A stretch of DNA of 64,000 nt, taken from assembly GCA_023151185.1 (NCBI GenBank), contig JAKLJL010000007.1:1-64000 (forward strand), written 5' to 3'. The stretch is from Bacteroidota bacterium. Lineage in GTDB: Bacteria > Bacteroidota > JABWAT01. The notes under the pieces were generated by a model. That model was not told the origin of the DNA and ran no database searches. It saw only the letters and a list, made by a program, of their open reading frames with translations. Positions 1,057-11,376 of the stretch are shown one piece after another. The position numbers were made by a program, and so were the translations under genes. Each line of letters opens with the position of its first letter. The stretch's first letter is position 1.

Positions 1057-2652
1057 ATGGACTTACTTCACCACTCCCTCTTCTTTTTGATTCTGATTAT
1101 TATCCTGGGTGAAGCCCTGGGAAAAATCGAGGTTTTTGCCTTCTCCTTCGGGCCGGCGGCTATCATTTTTGTCGCTCTGATCTTTGGAAATTACGGATAT
1201 ATACTTCCCAAAGAATATCTGGATCTCGGACTTGTTCTCTTCATTTACAGCATTGGCACCCAGGCCGGACCGGGATTTCTGACTTCCTTTAAAAGCTATG
1301 GACTGAAACTGTCTCTGGGTGCTTTTTTTGTGGTCTTTTCAGGCTTTCTGGTAGCCCTGATCAGTGCCTGGCTGATGGGCTACTCAGGGGATATCATTGC
1401 CGGAGCTTTTGCCGGGGCTCTGACCTCGACTCCCGGTCTGGCTGTTGCCGTCGAAATGACAAAAAGTGCTTTGGCACCTGCCGCCTACGGATTGACCTAC
1501 AGCTACGGCGTGATCGGCGTTATCCTGTTTATCAAGCTGCTGCCAAAACTGATAAAGGCCGATATCGCAAAAGAAGAGTCCGTTCTGAAGGAAGAAGTGG
1601 CACGGCAAAATCCGCCGGTCATTTACAAACATATCGAAATTACCAATCCGAATATTTCGGGAAAACTGGTCAGAGAACTGGGACTTAGCCGGATTGCCCC
1701 TGTTGCCATGACCCGATTGCTGAAAAAGGGCGCACCTGAGCCCGTTCTGGTTTCAGGTGAAACCCGGCTTGAAACAGGTGATCAGATCAGAATCGTCGGG
1801 ACGGAGGATGATCTGGAACGGGTAATCCTGTATATGGGCAGAGTCATTGACGCCAAAATGGAATTCAACGGCAGTCTGCTGAAAAAACGGATTGTGGTAT
1901 CCAAAAAGGCCTTTATCGGAAAATCCATCGGATCCATTAACTTCAATGAGGTGTTTAACGTGTCGGTCTCCCGGCTGACCCGGAACGGAATGGACATTCC
2001 GGCAGATCCTTCAACCCGGCTGCAGATGGGAGATGTAATTCATCTTGTGGGAATGGCGCCATCTCTGGAAAACATGAAAAAGCTGCTGGGAAATGATGTT
2101 AAAAAAGTGTATACCGCCAATATCATTTCCATCCTGACCGGGATATTTATCGGATATCTCATCGGAAAAATTCCGATTCTGCTTCCCTTTATCGGCGAGA
2201 TTTCGCTGGGAACCACCGGCGGCGTCCTGATCATGGGACTTCTGCTTTCCGGGCTTCACCGGACGGGGCCGATTATCTGGGCGGTACCCGAAACCGGAAG
2301 TGCCTTTATCCGTGAAATGGGGCTTGTTTTATTTCTCGCAACTGTCGGGACTCAGGCTGGCTCCTCGATTGTGACGACCATCGAGACGATGGGAATTAAC
2401 CTGTTTTTGGTCGGGATGCTGATTACAACCCTGACCATGGTTTCCGGATTTCTTTTTACACGGTATGTGCTCAAGATCCATTTTCTGAGAACGCTGGGGG
2501 TCATTACCGGCGGCATGACCAGTACACCGGGACTCGCCACCACAACTTCAATTTCCAAGACAGCCTTTGCTGCAACAGCCTATGCAACGGTTTATCCGGT
2601 TGCCCTGATCAGTAAAATTCTGGCAATCAAATTCCTGATCTGGCTGGCATGA
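1057..2652 (+). CDS. AspT/YidE/YbjL-family transporter with central TrkA-C domains
   Basis: This is a 531-residue inner-membrane protein of the aspartate:alanine exchanger (AspT/YidE/YbjL duplication) family. Two homologous membrane halves (about residues 1-165 and 355-531) flank two soluble RCK_C/TrkA_C-type domains (about 190-265 and 280-345). The halves share the family motif around GTQAG (GTQAGPGF in the first, GTQAGSS in the second) and an STPGLA motif (about residues 125-130 and 486-491). The length is normal. Known members exchange amino or dicarboxylic acids; the substrate here cannot be read from sequence. The ATG has only a weak purine-rich RBS. It faces the AT-rich island convergently. 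Confidence 0.85.
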   Translation: MDLLHHSLFFLILIIILGEALGKIEVFAFSFGPAAIIFVALIFGNYGYILPKEYLDLGLVLFIYSIGTQAGPGFLTSFKSYGLKLSLGAFFVVFSGFLVALISAWLMGYSGDIIAGAFAGALTSTPGLAVAVEMTKSALAPAAYGLTYSYGVIGVILFIKLLPKLIKADIAKEESVLKEEVARQNPPVIYKHIEITNPNISGKLVRELGLSRIAPVAMTRLLKKGAPEPVLVSGETRLETGDQIRIVGTEDDLERVILYMGRVIDAKMEFNGSLLKKRIVVSKKAFIGKSIGSINFNEVFNVSVSRLTRNGMDIPADPSTRLQMGDVIHLVGMAPSLENMKKLLGNDVKKVYTANIISILTGIFIGYLIGKIPILLPFIGEISLGTTGGVLIMGLLLSGLHRTGPIIWAVPETGSAFIREMGLVLFLATVGTQAGSSIVTTIETMGINLFLVGMLITTLTMVSGFLFTRYVLKIHFLRTLGVITGGMTSTPGLATTTSISKTAFAATAYATVYPVALISKILAIKFLIWLA

Positions 2653-2692
2653 AAAATTAGAAATTCAATTGTATTTTCAAAAACAGAGTTTC

Positions 2693-3742
2693 TTATTCAA
2701 CAATTCTGGTTGAATAATAACTTGAATTTGTAAACAATACCAACTGATTCTGAACAAATTCAATAGTATTTATTTTCCTAGAGACTTTTAGAGAGAAAGT
2801 GTAATCCCCATTCTGAGTACTATATACATCGATTATACACTGCTTTTCCAACTGATCGTAATCGTTTAGCAAAAAAATAAAGCCTCCGCCAACGCAAAGG
2901 GATAATGCATTCAGAGGTGTTTTCTTGACAATAGAAGTGAACCCACCCATTTTATTTTTTTCGTTTATGTATTTTGGCAACGAAGTGAATCGAACTGAAA
3001 GGCGATTAAAAACGACATTTCCAACAGAATCAAATCTTGAAATTGTAGGGGTGTGCATTCCAGCGAATATGATTGTTTCATTTTCTCCACTGTCAATCCA
3101 ACCATCTGAGTAAAACGGAAACGCCTTGTTGTTCTCAAACATGCCTAATTCTGAAGATTTAATTGCAACCTGATTAAAATTTTCACTTAAAGTTGCTATA
3201 TGATATTGTGAATTCTCTACAGAAAACGATGATAAGAGAAATTTATTCTCAGAAATTCTGCTAAGTTTAAAGCTTGTAATGTTACTTTTAATATATTTCA
3301 ATTTCTTACTTTTAAAATTATAGATTAAAAGTTGACTTGATGCATAATGAGAAAAAACAGCTATAGAATCGTTCAATATTACCATATCAGATAGGCCGAC
3401 CATTTGAATTTGGGCAGATTTTTCATAAAACTCGAATGCTAAAACCTTTTTATCTTCAATTTCGTTTAAATTCCTTGTTGCAGGATTCAAAAAAAATAGT
3501 CTGTTTTTATATGAATTTGTCAGTTCAATCTTTAAATTGGAGTCTTCAGAAAACAATTGAAGACTATCAACCAAATTCAATTTTTTAAACTTTAGTAATG
3601 TCTGATTCTGCCTTAAAGCAGTTCGTGGGTTTAATTTCCACTTTTCCGAAAGGGGGAAAGACTCAATCATAACCTCCTTACTATAAAAATAATAAGTTAG
3701 TAAGCTGGAAATTATTAGTAGGGATATTAATACCTTTTTCAT
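2693..3742 (-). CDS. Membrane-anchored six-bladed-propeller-like protein of the AT-rich island
   Basis: A 349-residue protein starting with an N-terminal membrane segment (about residues 3-20, no lipobox cysteine) followed by a long exported beta-rich domain. Repeated units of the form 'ILNDSIAVF...LLIYNF' and 'FIFLLNDYD' resemble blades of the BF3164-type 6-bladed propellers of Bacteroidetes; this is a fold guess from pattern, not a firm family match. It is the last gene of a leftward operon, 57 bases after a small exported cysteine peptide, with a strong stem-loop in that gap. Codon use and AT content differ from the rest of the window, as for its two partners. The stop codon lies in an 8-bp inverted repeat (2693-2700/2710-2717) that may help termination. 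Function unknown. Confidence 0.7.
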   Translation of the reverse strand: MKKVLISLLIISSLLTYYFYSKEVMIESFPLSEKWKLNPRTALRQNQTLLKFKKLNLVDSLQLFSEDSNLKIELTNSYKNRLFFLNPATRNLNEIEDKKVLAFEFYEKSAQIQMVGLSDMVILNDSIAVFSHYASSQLLIYNFKSKKLKYIKSNITSFKLSRISENKFLLSSFSVENSQYHIATLSENFNQVAIKSSELGMFENNKAFPFYSDGWIDSGENETIIFAGMHTPTISRFDSVGNVVFNRLSVRFTSLPKYINEKNKMGGFTSIVKKTPLNALSLCVGGGFIFLLNDYDQLEKQCIIDVYSTQNGDYTFSLKVSRKINTIEFVQNQLVLFTNSSYYSTRIVE

Positions 3743-3763
3743 TTTATATCTTTTTTTAAAGAT

Positions 3764-3791
3764 CGTTCTTCCTCCAAAAGGAAGAAGAACG
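3764..3791 (-). promoter_or_regulatory. Strong intercistronic stem-loop between cysteine peptide and propeller gene
   Basis: On the reverse strand the RNA would form a 12-bp stem (arms 3780-3791 and 3764-3775, one G-U pair) with a UUUU loop, starting 8 bases after the peptide's stop codon. It is followed by a second small hairpin (ATCTTT/AAAGAT, about 3748-3763) rather than a U-tract. That suggests an mRNA stabiliser or a partial terminator giving more peptide than propeller. Confidence 0.55.
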
Positions 3792-3799
3792 TTGAGAAA

Positions 3800-3979
3800 T
3801 CAATTAATAGCGTGTCCAGGACACATCACACCATTAATTACAACACCACAAACGTTAGTTGCACCCGAGCAATATTTGGCGCAGTCAACTAAGGCGTTAG
3901 CCTTTGTCGAGAAATCAAACATGCTTGAAACCGCAACAACAGCTACGGTTAACAGGGTAATATTAATGAACTTTTTCAT
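3800..3979 (-). CDS. Small exported four-cysteine peptide (NVEALA-like context)
   Basis: A 59-codon gene: MKK, a hydrophobic stretch (residues 4-21), then an ANA signal-peptidase site at residues 27-29. The predicted mature peptide has only 30 residues and four cysteines (Cys33, Cys37, Cys44, Cys53) plus glycines. The start ATG has an AAAGGA 6 bases upstream and overlaps the end of the MauE-like gene by 17 bases, so translation is probably coupled. Exported peptides of this size are found beside BF3164-like propellers in Bacteroidetes (NVEALA class, PF14055). The 'KANAL' before the cysteines is only a distant echo of that motif. Two disulfides are possible. It could be a signalling peptide, a bacteriocin or a structural peptide; none can be chosen from sequence. 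Confidence 0.8.
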   Translation of the reverse strand: MKKFINITLLTVAVVAVSSMFDFSTKANALVDCAKYCSGATNVCGVVINGVMCPGHAIN

Positions 3980-4403
3980 TGTTTATCCTTTCGTTTTTTT
4001 GTGTGATCTTACCTTTCGGCGGTAAGTTGATGAATGAAATTAAAGAAACTGATAAATTTAACAAAAGGTGCATAAAATTCGGTCTCCCAGCATTAATAGA
4101 AACCCAACATCCACAATCGTTAACGGGGATGATATAAATATTGATTGCCATAACAATTGTAAATAAAAAGAAAAGGATACCATTACAGATTAGCCCCATT
4201 CTTCTAATAGCTGGAATTAGAATAAATATTCCAATAAATATTTCAATAATCGGTATGGTAACAGTTAGTGGAATAATAATCGATTCAGGCAAATATTTAT
4301 ATCCTGAAAGTGAAACTGAAAATTGAACCAAGTGAAACAACTTATCGGTACCAGAAAACAAAATAAATCCAGATAACAAGAAATAAATAAGGTAAGTAAA
4401 CAT
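3963..4403 (-). CDS. MauE/DoxX-like four-helix membrane protein
   Basis: A 146-residue protein with four predicted membrane helices (about residues 4-20, 43-64, 71-92, 110-127). A conserved-looking NDCGCW motif (residues 95-100, Cys97 and Cys99) sits in the loop before the last helix. That Cys-X-Cys motif is characteristic of the MauE branch of DoxX-like proteins; MauE is needed for maturation of the disulfide-rich methylamine dehydrogenase small subunit. No methylamine dehydrogenase is present. The gene is first in the operon and overlaps the following four-cysteine peptide gene by 17 bases, so a role in oxidising or reducing that peptide is an attractive inference. AT-rich like its partners. 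Confidence 0.8.
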   Translation of the reverse strand: MFTYLIYFLLSGFILFSGTDKLFHLVQFSVSLSGYKYLPESIIIPLTVTIPIIEIFIGIFILIPAIRRMGLICNGILFFLFTIVMAINIYIIPVNDCGCWVSINAGRPNFMHLLLNLSVSLISFINLPPKGKITQKNERINNEKVH

Positions 4404-4482
4404 CTTAAGGTAAACCGATATTTTGGCAATTATTGTTTAAATGTAATTTATCTAATATCAATAACGATGATATTATTTATAT

Positions 4483-4518
4483 GTTGTCAATGTAGTTAAT
4501 TTTAATATAAGTTGTCAA
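4483..4518 (-). promoter_or_regulatory. Probable promoter region of the MauE operon with repeated TTGACAAC
   Basis: On the reverse strand TTGACAAC occurs twice, 28 bases apart (4511-4518 and 4483-4490), each followed by AT-rich sequence, about 80-115 bases upstream of the MauE start. Each could be a -35 element (two promoters) or the pair could be an operator. No good -10 was found at ideal spacing for either, so this is tentative. Confidence 0.35.
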
Positions 4519-4667
4519 ATGGATCCACGAAATTTATCAGTTTTTTTTAAGTTTCTATCATTTATGCCAAATCAATCACATTCAATTGAACAACATTTGA
4601 TTTGAAATCTGTTTAGTTTATGCGGTTTTTTGAAAATGGTACCCATAGATTGGTTCACTTTGAGTTA

Positions 4668-4701
4668 ATAAAAAAGGGAAGCTAGTGGCTTCCCTTTTTT
4701 T
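4668..4701 (-). terminator. Rho-independent terminator of tRNA-Leu
   Basis: A GGGAAGC/GCTTCCC stem (arms 4676-4682 and 4688-4694, 5-base loop) is flanked by A/T runs on both sides. It starts about 10 bases after the 3' end of tRNA-Leu on the reverse strand and gives a UUUUUU tail. The flanks would also allow termination in the other direction. Confidence 0.85.
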
Positions 4702-4703
4702 TG

Positions 4704-4788
4704 TACCGAGGGTCGGAATCGAACCGACACGGGTTATTCACCCACTGGATTTTGAGTCCAGCGCGTCTACCAATTTCACCACCCCGGC
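4704..4788 (-). tRNA. tRNA-Leu (anticodon CAA)
   Basis: This 85-nt reverse-strand tRNA has acceptor GCCGGGG paired with CCTCGGT, discriminator A, a D-arm with TTGGTAGAC, anticodon stem CTGGA/TCCAG, loop CTCAAAA (anticodon CAA), a long class II variable arm (GGGTGAATAACCC) and a T-arm GTCGG-TTCGATT-CCGAC. CCA is not encoded. It reads UUG leucine codons. Two damaged copies lie directly upstream in its transcription direction. Confidence 0.95.
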
Positions 4789-4823
4789 AATTATATTTTC
4801 AAACTTGTAGATTTAGCACATTT

Positions 4824-4885
4824 GACCGGATTATTCACCCATCCCGATTGAATCGGGACGCGTCTACCAATTTCACCACCCCGGC
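4824..4885 (-). pseudogene. Defective tRNA-Leu copy 1 (no T-arm)
   Basis: It keeps GCCGGGG, the D-arm and the start of the variable arm, but the anticodon arm is replaced by the palindrome TCCCGATTCAATCGGGA and the T-arm and 3' acceptor strand are absent. If folded as an anticodon arm, the 7-base loop ATTCAAT would present UCA. Not expected to be a working tRNA. Confidence 0.75.
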
Positions 4886-4920
4886 AATTATATTTTCAAA
4901 CTTATAGATCTAGCACATTT

Positions 4921-4982
4921 GACCGGATTATTCACCCATCCCGATTGAATCGGGACGCCTCTACCACTTTCACCACCCCGGT
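4921..4982 (-). pseudogene. Defective tRNA-Leu copy 2 (no T-arm, decayed acceptor)
   Basis: Same organisation as copy 1, with the same palindromic replacement of the anticodon arm. It has more decay: the first acceptor base is changed, and the D-arm has AAAGTGGTAGAGG instead of AAATTGGTAGACG. It is the copy furthest upstream. Confidence 0.7.
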
Positions 4983-5818: not shown

Positions 5819-7644
5819 AAGTATTTCGCCAGCTCAGTCAGAATTTTCTCTCCGTTTTCAATCAGGTCATCTGCTGACTCCGAAATCATCTGAACCGGCG
5901 CAAACCGGTATTCATTCAGCCGGGTCAGAAACGATGTAACAGCCTCAAGGACTTCGGACGGAACCTGCTGGCGGTTCAGTTCTGCGAGGACTTCGTCAAC
6001 CGTCCAGGCTGATTCTTCCAAACGGGTTCTTCTGGCAATAAACTGGCTGAAAACCCGGTGCAGTTCAGAAAGAACCGCTTTCATATCCCCACCCTCAGCC
6101 TGGATTTTACGGACCTGTGCGAGGGATTTTTTTGCAAAGCGGATGGCGTTTTTATGCCCGTATCCCAGAATATCTGCCCGTTCTTTCAATTGCCTGCGCC
6201 GGAACCAGAAAACCAACCCAAGTCCGCCCCAAATAACCAATACGGTACCGGTTCCCAACGCCAACAGATTCAACCGTGACCCGGTTTCGGTAAGGTTGGT
6301 TTCCGTCATGATAAAGGAAATATCCCGTCCGATAGCCCTGAAGTCATAGCTTTCACCGGTTCCTGCTCCGCCGGAGTTTGGATCCCCGGTTACTTTTACT
6401 GATTCTGAGGGGAATTCAACCTGGGTGTACTTTCCGGAAGCCAGATCGAAATAGGAAAATCCGGCTGCGGGTATTTCGAGTTCACCGGTTACCCGGGGGA
6501 TAACGGTATACTCAACAGTCCAGGTTCCGGCCCCGCCGTTGGCAGTCGGATTAATCCGGACGGTTTCCTTTGGCGGATAGCTTTCGGCTGGAGGCGGAAA
6601 GTCCAGTTTTGGCGGAATAAAGTTTTTAAAGTTTCCGGCTCCTTCGAACGTCATCACAACCGAGACCGGCTGATTTACTGCCACTGATTTCCGGTCCACT
6701 TTCCGGGTCGCAACCAGCCGGCCGGTAAATCCGGAAAAATCAGACGGTGCCTGGCCCGGGTTTTTAACAGACAGCACCACTTTCGGGCTGGTGACGTTGA
6801 TCTGGGCATAATCCTGAAACGGATCGGCCAGAAAATCATCAAATATGGATTGCCGGGAAGTTTTTCTCGGGCGGGCAACCTGCAGGTTTAAAACCAGCGG
6901 GGTAATGGTAACCGGTCCGGTTTGCTGCGGATACACGAGAATTTCCCGGATGGTGACCACACTGTAGGAAACCCCGTTGATCAGTTCCTGATCGGGCTGC
7001 TGATTCGGACGGCCCGAATTCAGATCCTCTGACAGGATACCCGTTCCGCCGGCATCCGTCACCAGATTGAGGTTGCTAACCCGTGTTCTGAAATACAGCT
7101 TATACCGGATATAAACCGGCTGGCCGGTTACCGGGACCGTAGTTGATGGAAATGCTTTCAGAAAAACAATATCGTCCACCGATGCAGCCTGACTTCCTGA
7201 GGGTGCTTTCTCACCGGCTTCGAGAACTTTCAGTGTCAATGTATTGGATGAAAATGTTTTACCGTTCAGGGTAACAACGGCCGGGCCGATGGAATAAGAT
7301 CCGGCTTTTGTGGTACTCAGTGCCAGATTCTCGGAAACAGTAATCCGGTAAGATCCGTTGACAATTGAAATACTCTGTCCCGTGGAAGATTGGCCGGGAA
7401 TCCGTTTTATTCCCTGCGGAAGCTTGAGTTCAGCCTTCGGGAGGTTCAGGTTGGAACCGGCAGATACTTCGATGGTCACCGGGATCAGGTCATTGATCCG
7501 CCAGGTAGTCTGATCACAGGAAATCTGAACTGTCAGCGACTGGGCTTCGGCCTGCCGGCCCCCGGAAAGCACCGCAACAGCCAGAACGGGAAGAACCCTT
7601 GCCATCAGACGGATTATAGAGTGAGAGAATCTGTTAATATTCAT
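5815..7644 (-). CDS. batD: BatD: large periplasmic Bat protein with C-terminal membrane anchor
   Basis: A 609-residue protein with a signal peptide (about 1-34, ending AEAQ) and several immunoglobulin-like beta domains (for example around ISCDQTTWRINDLIPVTIEV and VDRKSVAVNQPVSVVMTFEG). A membrane helix follows at about 457-477, then a cytoplasmic tail with a helical segment. The length and layout match BatD (oxygen tolerance family). It lies 24 bases after batC and overlaps batE by 4 bases. BatD is thought to act with the vWA proteins BatA/BatB at the membrane. The ATG chosen has a weak RBS. Confidence 0.88.
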   Translation of the reverse strand: MNINRFSHSIIRLMARVLPVLAVAVLSGGRQAEAQSLTVQISCDQTTWRINDLIPVTIEVSAGSNLNLPKAELKLPQGIKRIPGQSSTGQSISIVNGSYRITVSENLALSTTKAGSYSIGPAVVTLNGKTFSSNTLTLKVLEAGEKAPSGSQAASVDDIVFLKAFPSTTVPVTGQPVYIRYKLYFRTRVSNLNLVTDAGGTGILSEDLNSGRPNQQPDQELINGVSYSVVTIREILVYPQQTGPVTITPLVLNLQVARPRKTSRQSIFDDFLADPFQDYAQINVTSPKVVLSVKNPGQAPSDFSGFTGRLVATRKVDRKSVAVNQPVSVVMTFEGAGNFKNFIPPKLDFPPPAESYPPKETVRINPTANGGAGTWTVEYTVIPRVTGELEIPAAGFSYFDLASGKYTQVEFPSESVKVTGDPNSGGAGTGESYDFRAIGRDISFIMTETNLTETGSRLNLLALGTGTVLVIWGGLGLVFWFRRRQLKERADILGYGHKNAIRFAKKSLAQVRKIQAEGGDMKAVLSELHRVFSQFIARRTRLEESAWTVDEVLAELNRQQVPSEVLEAVTSFLTRLNEYRFAPVQMISESADDLIENGEKILTELAKYL

Positions 7645-8340: not shown

Positions 8341-9374
8341 TTCTTTTCCTCAGATGCAGCAGGAACCAATAAAAATGAAACCAGAAAAAGAACAAGGGCA
8401 ATGGCCAGCGGATACTGGAATTTGTTATCCAGATCAACGACTTCGGATGATTTGAAATCCGTTTTTTTCATGGTCCGGATAATGTCGGTCAGCTTATAAA
8501 AATCGGACTGGGTTGCCCCGATTCTGAAATATTCAGCACCGGATTCTGATGCCAGGCGGGCGAGTCCGTCTTCTTTAAGCTGGGTTGTCACCACAGTACC
8601 GGTCCGGTCACGTTTAAAATCAATAACTTTTCCACTCCGGTCCTTCACCGGAATCGGTCCGCCGGCAGGTGTACCAACGCCGACCGTGTACACTTTTATT
8701 CCGTTCTCGGCGGCAATTTTTACGGCTTCATCTGTTCCGCCCTCATGATCTTCGCCGTCAGAAACCAGAACCATTATTTTGGACTTTTGCTCCTCTGAAT
8801 CTGTTTCCCCGATTGTCAGCGTCCGGTCAAAGGCATCTACGGCAGATTCAACCGGTGCTGAAAGGCGGGTGCCGGGAACCGGCAGATACCCGGTTGTGAT
8901 GGCATCCAGATACAGATTGATAGCTGAATAATCAGAGGTCAGGGGGCATTGGAGAAACGCGTCATTTTCGAATACAATCAGCCCGACACGATCACCCTGA
9001 AGGGAGTTAACAAAGGATCTGATTTCCAGTTTTGCTTTATCCAGCCGGGAAGGAACAACATCCTGGGCAAGCATGGAATTCGAAATATCCAGAGCAATAA
9101 TAAGGTCAATGCCCCGGTGTTTGATCTGCCGGGTTTTTTCACCAAGCAGAGGACCCATCAGAGCAAGAATGGCAAACATGAATCCCAGGGTCCAGAGTGT
9201 GATCCTGACCTGATTCCATTTCAGTCCAGCAGAAAGATTCAGTTTTTCGAGATTTCCATCCTGAAAATAATCTTTAAGGTTTTTTTTCTGGCTTCTTCGG
9301 AAAAGCAGAATCAGAATGGCTGCGGCCGGAATCAGGATCAGCCCAAACAGGTAAAACCAGTTTGCAAATTTCAT
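8337..9374 (-). CDS. batB: BatB: von Willebrand A-domain membrane protein
   Basis: A 345-residue protein with N-terminal membrane segments, a central vWA domain and a C-terminal helix (about 322-340). The MIDAS metal site is complete: DISNS, the Thr of PLTSDYS and the Asp of VSDGEDHEGG. I chose the ATG at 9372-9374 because GGAGGAG lies just upstream and it overlaps the batA stop (ATGA); a GTG five codons earlier is possible but less well placed. The vWA face probably binds BatD or other partners in the membrane. Confidence 0.9.
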   Translation of the reverse strand: MKFANWFYLFGLILIPAAAILILLFRRSQKKNLKDYFQDGNLEKLNLSAGLKWNQVRITLWTLGFMFAILALMGPLLGEKTRQIKHRGIDLIIALDISNSMLAQDVVPSRLDKAKLEIRSFVNSLQGDRVGLIVFENDAFLQCPLTSDYSAINLYLDAITTGYLPVPGTRLSAPVESAVDAFDRTLTIGETDSEEQKSKIMVLVSDGEDHEGGTDEAVKIAAENGIKVYTVGVGTPAGGPIPVKDRSGKVIDFKRDRTGTVVTTQLKEDGLARLASESGAEYFRIGATQSDFYKLTDIIRTMKKTDFKSSEVVDLDNKFQYPLAIALVLFLVSFLLVPAASEEKK

Positions 9375-10384
9375 TTCTCCTCCGCCCACAATTCATGAAC
9401 TGCCGGCCGGCACCGTGTTTTTGCCAGAACCAGTTCAAGAAATAACAGAATCAGGGCAGGAATCAGAAACCAGTGATAAATTTCTTCATACTGGTAGTAA
9501 TTTTTTACCTCGATTTTTGTTTTTTCGAGTGACCCGATTTCTGAATAAATTTCTTTCAGTGATTTGTTATCCGTTGCCCGGTAATACTTTCCGCCGGTCA
9601 TTTCTGCAACTTTGGTCAGAGTTTCATCATCCACATCCACGGCCTGGCTGACCAGAACCGTCCTGCCATACTGATCCTGAACCGGAATCTGGGCTTCATC
9701 CAGACGGCCAACACCGATTGTGTACACCCGAACCCCCATACTTAACGCCAGATCTGCTGCAGTAACAGGATCAATATCCCCCTGATTGTTCCGTCCGTCA
9801 GTCAGCAAAATAATGACCTTCGATTTTGCATCCGAATCCCGCAGCCGGTTAACCGAAGTGGCCAGTGCCATACCGATTGCAGTACCGGGGTTAGCCTCAT
9901 CAAACGTTGTGGTTGTGATCAGTTTTTTGATCATGTCATAATCAAGTGTCAGAGGTGCCTGGGTAAAGGCCTGTCCGGCGAAAACAACGAGGCCGATCCG
10001 GTCAGCTTCCCTTCCCGCCACAAAATCACGGGCAACCTCCCGTGCTGCTGCCAGACGGTTCGGATTCAGATCCATCGCCTTCATGGAAGCTGAAATATCA
10101 AGGGCCAGAACGATATCCACCCCTTCCGAATTGATGACCCGTTCTGTATTGATAAGCTGCGGGCGGGCCAGTGCAACCACCAGCAGGGTAAAACCCAGAA
10201 TTCTGAGGGGAAATAAAAGGCGGGATATCCAGACCCAAAAGGAATTTCCCGCTGCGGCAACTGCTGTGACCCGACCGTAAAACAGCACCGGTTTTTGAGT
10301 TCTGCCCTTGAGCCAGTTCCAGAAAATCCAGGCAGGAATCACCAGAAGAAGTCCCAGAAGCAGAGGAGATTCAAATCCGATCAT
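9371..10384 (-). CDS. batA: BatA: von Willebrand A-domain membrane protein
   Basis: A 337-residue paralogue of BatB with the same layout: two N-terminal membrane helices (about 5-22 and 55-77), a vWA domain with an intact MIDAS (DISAS, PLTLDYD, LLTDGRNNQG) and a C-terminal helix (about 305-325). The 4-base overlaps with both neighbours suggest tight co-translation. In the family it is found with MoxR and DUF58 proteins and linked to stress or oxygen tolerance. Confidence 0.9.
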   Translation of the reverse strand: MIGFESPLLLGLLLVIPAWIFWNWLKGRTQKPVLFYGRVTAVAAAGNSFWVWISRLLFPLRILGFTLLVVALARPQLINTERVINSEGVDIVLALDISASMKAMDLNPNRLAAAREVARDFVAGREADRIGLVVFAGQAFTQAPLTLDYDMIKKLITTTTFDEANPGTAIGMALATSVNRLRDSDAKSKVIILLTDGRNNQGDIDPVTAADLALSMGVRVYTIGVGRLDEAQIPVQDQYGRTVLVSQAVDVDDETLTKVAEMTGGKYYRATDNKSLKEIYSEIGSLEKTKIEVKNYYQYEEIYHWFLIPALILLFLELVLAKTRCRPAVHELWAEEK

Positions 10385-11376
10385 GACGGGTCTCCTTCTG
10401 TCAGGCTGGCTGCCGGTGGTTCAGCCTGCGGTGCCTGTTTGCCAGGGAAGGATCTGGGGTCGATGGCCTCGCCGGCTTTCCTGACCGAATTAAAATCTGA
10501 GGCCATCTGGGAGTAAACTGCCTGTTGTTTGGCAAATTTGATCAGATCAGCCCGCTGAAGCAGTAAATTCATATCCGGCAGGATCTCCCTGAGGTCTGAC
10601 CGGGTTTCCAGCCAGGACAAAAATTCATCGGATGTCATTTCTGCAACCGGTGACCCTGAAATACCTTCGAGGTACTTTTTCAGGATTTCAATCAGGTCTG
10701 AATAAAATCCTTTTACCTGTTCATGCCAGGTTTCCTTGCCTTCCAAAAGCCGGTTCATCTGCTCAACAAACAGGTCGTACGGGGTTTTAACCGGTGCCGT
10801 TACCGTTTCAACTTCGTCCTGCGGGAGTTTTCTGTTTTTACGGATCCGGTAAATCACGTACCAGATGACGGCGATGCCTGCTGCAGTTGCAAGAACCCAG
10901 AGCAGATAGTGCCACCAGGGCCGGGATGTTTCAATAATGTCTTTTTCGGGCCGGACCAGTGTATCACCCTCATCCGTTGCCAGTTTCGGATCAGGGAAAA
11001 ACGCCGGGGTTGCAAACCAGACTGAATCTGAACCGGTTTGATTTTTAAGTATAAAGAACACCGGATTGAGCGTATCCTTCGAAAAGCCCCAAAACTGATA
11101 CGGCATTTTCAGTGAATAGGCAACCTGCTTCCCGTCGGATACCGTAAGTGTTTCGGCAGGAAGCGGATCCATCACAGACAGAAAAGCTGAATCTGCACGA
11201 ACCGTCCAGGAATAGCCGGACTTTCCCTTCCAGCCTACGGTAAAGGTAATGGTATCACCGGTTCTGAGGGTATCTTTCAATTCCGTCCGGAATTGCCAGT
11301 CAGCAAAGTTCTGAGCAAAAAGCGGAGCCGTAGCCAGCAGAAACCAGCCGGACAGCGATAAGAATCGGGTCTTCAT
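10381..11376 (-). CDS. Bat-operon membrane protein between DUF58 and BatA
   Basis: A 331-residue protein with a signal peptide (1-21, ending LFAQ), a beta-rich extracytoplasmic domain (about 25-140), one membrane helix (about 155-177) and a cytoplasmic helical domain (about 190-310) containing DLFVEQMNRLLEG and WHEQVKGFYSDLIEILKKYL. The position and topology match the DUF4381-like or otherwise unnamed proteins of MoxR/vWA operons. It overlaps the DUF58 gene stop (TGATG) and batA (ATGA). Likely a membrane adaptor; no catalytic motif seen. Confidence 0.75.
   Translation of the reverse strand: MKTRFLSLSGWFLLATAPLFAQNFADWQFRTELKDTLRTGDTITFTVGWKGKSGYSWTVRADSAFLSVMDPLPAETLTVSDGKQVAYSLKMPYQFWGFSKDTLNPVFFILKNQTGSDSVWFATPAFFPDPKLATDEGDTLVRPEKDIIETSRPWWHYLLWVLATAAGIAVIWYVIYRIRKNRKLPQDEVETVTAPVKTPYDLFVEQMNRLLEGKETWHEQVKGFYSDLIEILKKYLEGISGSPVAEMTSDEFLSWLETRSDLREILPDMNLLLQRADLIKFAKQQAVYSQMASDFNSVRKAGEAIDPRSFPGKQAPQAEPPAASLTEGDPS

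Follow-up and report, generated by a model that had tools for sequence, protein, structure and literature searches.

What do three short leftward genes, lying together on an AT-rich island, make as a unit, if they are a unit at all? The question is raised by a window of 64,000 nucleotides (the whole stretch of Bacteroidota DNA analysed here), in which a MauE-like membrane protein, a very small exported peptide with four cysteines and a propeller-like protein are encoded one after the other. A preliminary description, made from the sequence alone, proposed a dedicated system that exports, oxidises and then uses the cysteine peptide, with the MauE-like protein as its redox partner. We computed the gene anatomy of the locus, the co-occurrence of its parts in related genomes, the even cysteine numbers of related peptides, the co-variation of peptide and propeller, a hairpin between their genes and the insertion that carries them. 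The trio is, in our judgement, probably a minimal and horizontally acquired form of a widespread cassette for the production of disulfide peptides, working by the mechanism proposed below.

All three reading frames described earlier were confirmed on the minus strand (146, 59 and 349 aa; Table 1), where an AspT-like transporter gene flanks them on one side and tRNA-Leu on the other. Of the two junctions given for them, the 57-bp gap that follows the peptide gene and precedes the propeller gene stands (3743-3799), while the supposed 17-bp junction between the MauE and peptide genes is really an overlap of 17 bp (3963-3979). The GC content of the trio region is ~30%, compared with ~49% in its surroundings. 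Two congeneric genomes, G001 and G002, possess the same flanking genes, and window positions 2650 and 4695 map 57 or 58 bp apart in them; the insert measures 2,044 bp in the window, and the corresponding site in G001 and G002 holds 56 and 57 bp, respectively. Profiles of the propeller and of MauE gave zero matches in these two genomes and in one further genome of the same family. By these sequence comparisons the trio is a lineage-specific insertion, apparently acquired horizontally.

Table 1. Features of the trio and its flanks (positions in the window)
Feature	Position	Strand	Basis
MauE-family membrane redox protein, 146 aa, NDCGCW	3963..4403	-	PF07291 match, tree, kept CGC
59-aa peptide precursor, predicted exported	3800..3979	-	sequence, shuffle test, position as in relatives
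Predicted mature peptide LVDCAKYCSGATNVCGVVINGVMCPGHAIN	3803..3892	-	inferred from ANA site in sequence
12-bp RNA hairpin in the peptide-propeller gap (may attenuate or stabilise)	3764..3791	-	folding z
349-aa NHL-type 6-bladed beta-propeller, N-terminally anchored	2693..3742	-	profile, AF2 model, Foldseek
AT-rich lineage-specific insert with the trio	2651..4694	.	replaced by 56/57 bp in G001/G002; GC
tRNA-Leu(CAA), 3' end adjoining the insert	4703..4788	-	sequence

The window was searched for a second copy of the tRNA 3' end, as would mark an integrase-type attachment site, and contains none. Tandem 97-bp units at window positions 4762-4981 copy the 5' half of tRNA-Leu(CAA) and contain a hairpin and the variable arm, without a complete tRNA; comparable partial tRNA-Leu copies, differing in number, occur in G001 and G002. 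Such partial repeats were rejected as insertion scars because they are present in these two genomes, both of which lack the insert.

The upstream gene had been likened to MauE, and its product indeed matches Pfam family PF07291 far above the cut-off (1.7e-17; 64.4 bits, cut-off 27; residues 2-124). The CxC cysteine pair of the family is present as NDCGCW at residues 95-100 (VNDCGCW in the reading frame), and of the 15 MauE proteins encoded in related propeller loci (see below) 13 retain CGC. In a phylogenetic tree the window MauE clusters with two MauE proteins of such loci (support 97/93), on long branches.

The anatomy reported for the 59-residue frame, i.e. a signal peptide, an ANA site and a four-cysteine mature part of about 30 residues, can be read directly from the sequence. 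Its Lys-rich N-terminus is followed by a hydrophobic stretch and by ANA at residues 27-29, and the predicted mature part (residues 30-59) is 30 residues long, contains four Cys and lacks Trp. AAAGGA lies upstream of the ATG. The peptide matches no family in Pfam or NCBIfam, and the sets searched held no close homologue of it. When the 268-bp junction was subjected to 20,000 dinucleotide-preserving shuffles, scored for an ATG reading frame with a signal-like N-terminus and at least four Cys, only nine contained a comparable frame, and the 59-codon frame is therefore unlikely to be due to chance.

The third gene had been taken for a BF3164-like propeller, an assignment that holds for the family, whose members related to the window protein match PF17170 and PF15869 (e.g. 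PF17170 with 39.7 bits), and fails for the window protein itself, which scores above no Pfam or NCBIfam cut-off, PF17170 and PF15869 included. Against a profile of 27 sequences built without it, the window protein scores 78.4 bits (E 1e-22 for 4,000 sequences). An AlphaFold2 model with 10 relatives as input reached moderate confidence (pLDDT 67.7, pTM 0.67), and the top PDB matches of this model in Foldseek are NHL 6-bladed propellers, with the Brat NHL domain (1q7f, E 6e-10) as the best. The family is widely divergent, a D-Y-Y-S motif at the C-terminus alone being kept, and a lipobox-like motif occurs in 14 of 42 related propellers. A direct search of the genome contigs with the window sequence found no relative; profile scans lacked conserved blocks, and a two-sequence alignment was used in the end. 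By profile and model, the third gene thus encodes a divergent 6-bladed propeller of NHL type from a peptide-linked family.

Does the combination recur? Among 395 genomes of the phylum, 92 contain matches to the propeller profile, and the best matches supplied 59 loci (627 kb); the choice was made by propeller score, and the loci are interrelated, not independent. A peptide with a signal and at least three cysteines lies upstream of 43 of 106 propellers and of four of 180 control genes, i.e. further long genes taken from these loci (Fisher p 2e-17, for non-independent loci). The first count is probably low, because the peptide finder, a heuristic, misses the window peptide with its hydrophobic mature part. 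Even numbers of Cys after residue 22, which internal disulfides would give, characterize 35 of 42 related peptides, and Trp is absent from 17 of the 42. MauE is found in 14 of the 59 loci, with 15 genes in 627 kb against the 0.2-0.3 or so to be expected from the roughly one to a few copies of PF07291 per genome. The conserved co-occurrence that the preliminary description had named as a check is thus present, and the combination in related genomes is not accidental. Its carriers are, among others, a Chlorobi MAG (CHB1), Candidatus Kryptonium thompsonii and Candidatus Kutchimonas denitrificans. Peptide and propeller form the core, whereas MauE, enriched in the same loci but missing from the majority of them, is optional. 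The window trio fits the surveyed cassette, with a signal-bearing multi-Cys peptide directly upstream of a propeller and a hairpin between the two.

Peptide similarity and propeller similarity are correlated across genera (r 0.49), and permutation of the pairs within families yielded r 0.10±0.06, with none of 2000 permutations as high as 0.49. This co-variation shows that the pairs travel together, not that the partners touch, since joint inheritance of neighbours can cause the same pattern.

Larger loci also carry genes for a thioredoxin-like membrane protein (whose family evidence is an AhpC-TSA match at E 0.0017 only), an S26 signal peptidase, a Wzy_C/TPR ligase and an RND permease with its adaptor. 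RND permeases occur in 15 of the 59 loci where about 2 would be expected at 6-19 copies per genome, and small HTH_18 proteins in 10 loci. The order MauE, peptide, propeller, thioredoxin-like protein, RND permease, membrane fusion protein (MFP) recurs with variations. The window site is devoid of thioredoxin-like, S26, RND and MFP genes, and the corresponding steps would consequently need host proteins.

Individual loci show further peculiarities. At L082 of the MAG G054 (5909-6221) the peptide frame between MauE and propeller appears broken, signal and Cys parts lying in different frames; another locus of this genome, L081, has an intact peptide. The L126 cluster holds MauE, S26, a peptide and several propellers together with a 729-aa candidate C39-peptidase ABC exporter, recognised by sequence likeness (1794-3983), and a 535-aa Cys-rich protein (8951-10558). 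Two different RND permeases stand beside peptide-propeller genes at five sites (G115:C64, G353:C6, G030:C42, G333:C31 and G385:C165), with adaptor genes nearby, in an arrangement reminiscent of two-permease pumps.

Directly after the peptide stop the window possesses a 12-bp hairpin (z -5.2 and -5.7 in two calculations). Related peptide-propeller gaps of 25-250 bp (n=27) were compared with control gaps from the same loci (n=94): z < -2 was reached in 19 related and 14 control gaps (p 8e-8), and z < -4 in 15 and two, respectively (p 3e-10). The stem sequences vary among relatives, such that structure is kept and not sequence. A T run follows the hairpin in some relatives and is absent in the window, which makes termination there uncertain. 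Strong hairpins between peptide stop and propeller start, in part followed by T runs, were also seen in L084, L098, L105, L110 and L126. On the model of known precursor operons, the hairpin suggests that peptide transcripts exceed those downstream of it.

From these sequence features we infer that the peptide is overproduced, cleaved, oxidised, bound and released. Its gene would be transcribed together with that of MauE, and owing to the hairpin behind this gene more peptide than propeller would be made; the peptide would leave through Sec and be cleaved after ANA, and its four cysteines would be oxidised in the periplasm, where MauE may act as the membrane redox partner. The membrane-anchored propeller would then bind the mature peptide as its dedicated partner, be it carrier or receptor, and in the larger relatives an RND pump would push the peptide out. 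The disulfide and partner roles are, in our view, well motivated. As to the downstream role, we lean towards an extracellular signal or a competition peptide, with no firm choice between the two.

An antimicrobial, bacteriocin-like peptide, with a propeller that confers immunity by binding in the envelope and an RND pump of the larger loci that exports the peptide or protects its producer, is somewhat unlikely. The Cys-rich mature parts are variable, several distinct peptide-propeller pairs share a genome, RND pumps adjoin them, L126 has its C39-type exporter candidate, and the patchy distribution and the insertion fit as well. However, Pfam and NCBIfam yielded no bacteriocin family match and no immunity family was recognised. 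The double-glycine leader and exporter typical of class II bacteriocins and other C39-exported peptides are likewise missing: the window peptide has a Sec-type signal with ANA instead of such a leader, and none of the three genes of the insert encodes a C39 ABC exporter.

A similar, limited probability attaches to the peptide as a signal (pheromone) with the propeller as cell-surface sensor or carrier. Membrane-anchored or lipoprotein-like propellers, of which the lipobox-like motif speaks, the small HTH_18 regulators, the pair-specific co-variation and the transcript excess suggested by the hairpin would all suit it, but the loci contain no consistent transducing partner (kinase or anti-sigma factor), and the window site contains none.

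That the propeller is an enzyme which cuts, cyclises or linearises the peptide appears improbable. Streptogramin (virginiamycin B) lyase 2z2p is near the top of its fold matches (E 5e-9), but this match, at 12% identity, is generic for the fold, and the wide divergence of the propellers down to a single conserved motif also tells against catalysis.

Still less credible is a reduced relative of methylamine dehydrogenase (MADH), i.e. an oxidase or dehydrogenase in which a MauE would go with a small subunit rich in disulfides and a large subunit of propeller type. The mau cluster does combine the same three types of parts, and the MADH heavy chain (1mg2_A) appears in the Foldseek list at rank 34 (E 1e-7). 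However, the MADH small subunit has two Trp that form TTQ, whereas the 59-aa precursor has no Trp at all and a mature part of only ~30 residues, and many related peptides lack Trp too; MauG and MauD are not at the site, nor are other mau genes, and the best folds are NHL 6-bladed and not 7-bladed as in MauB. The missing Trp and the missing mau genes led us to discard this reading.

Finally, that the 59-codon frame is no gene, with MauE and propeller neighbours by chance, can be dismissed as barely conceivable: the peptide has no homologue by sequence, but the rarity of such frames in the shuffles, the position shared with peptides of relatives, the overlap with MauE and the hairpin directly 3' of the stop all oppose it.

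We retain the disulfide-peptide cassette, which appears widespread and uncharacterised, with the window trio as, on its sequence, a real minimal member. If this is true, NVEALA peptides could be understood in one frame with orphan 6-bladed propellers and with stray MauE proteins, an RND pump would be suggested as able to act as a peptide exporter, and the trio, as the smallest natural version, could reveal which parts are essential. Searches of the open-access literature on NVEALA, on MauE with RND and on the BT066x genes returned nothing about function, and no paper on a propeller-peptide system was found there.

Among known systems, the NVEALA peptides of Bacteroidales with their PF17170/TolB_like propellers come close, since there, too, a small exported Cys peptide lies directly upstream of a 6-bladed propeller. 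A toolkit is shared with the NVEALA clusters: among the NVEALA-type clusters examined in Bacteroidales, the majority have S26 peptidases and Wzy_C proteins alongside propellers of the family, with MauE in one and a thioredoxin-like protein in one. They differ from the window trio in their leader motif and their PF14055 match, and the trio comprises only three genes. Membership of the window peptide itself in NVEALA was rejected: it reads KANALV where the leader motif would stand, no match to PF14055 appeared at E values up to 10, and the genome gave no PF14055 hit.

The candidate RiPP clusters that decRiPPter reported from Streptomyces contain mauE, in one case with mauD as well, next to precursors of at least eight Cys, for which precursor modification has been proposed (PMC7794033). 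They resemble the trio in the neighbourhood of MauE and a small Cys-rich precursor and are unlike it in phylum, in their larger number of cysteines and in that the account of these clusters does not mention a propeller (PMC7794033).

For Bacteroides thetaiotaomicron, a laboratory organism, a published table lists an O-antigen ligase (BT0662), a hypothetical protein (BT0663), a 6-bladed propeller (BT0664), signal peptidase I (BT0667) and an RND adaptor (BT0669), in the order of the larger cassettes and matched to them by annotation and order only; unlike the trio, the rows name no MauE, and they report no function (PMC10434189). More tentatively, the surveyed loci may represent a new envelope system, in which disulfide peptides are matured and exported with a dedicated MauE/thioredoxin redox pair, a signal peptidase of its own, an RND-type exporter and a propeller specific for the peptide. 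It would reach beyond Bacteroidales into Chlorobi-like, Balneola/Rhodothermus-like and Kryptonia-like bacteria, with NVEALA peptides and the trio as its two ends. As far as the published annotation of BT0662-BT0669 goes, its gene order makes the function of the small Cys peptides open to direct test in B. thetaiotaomicron.
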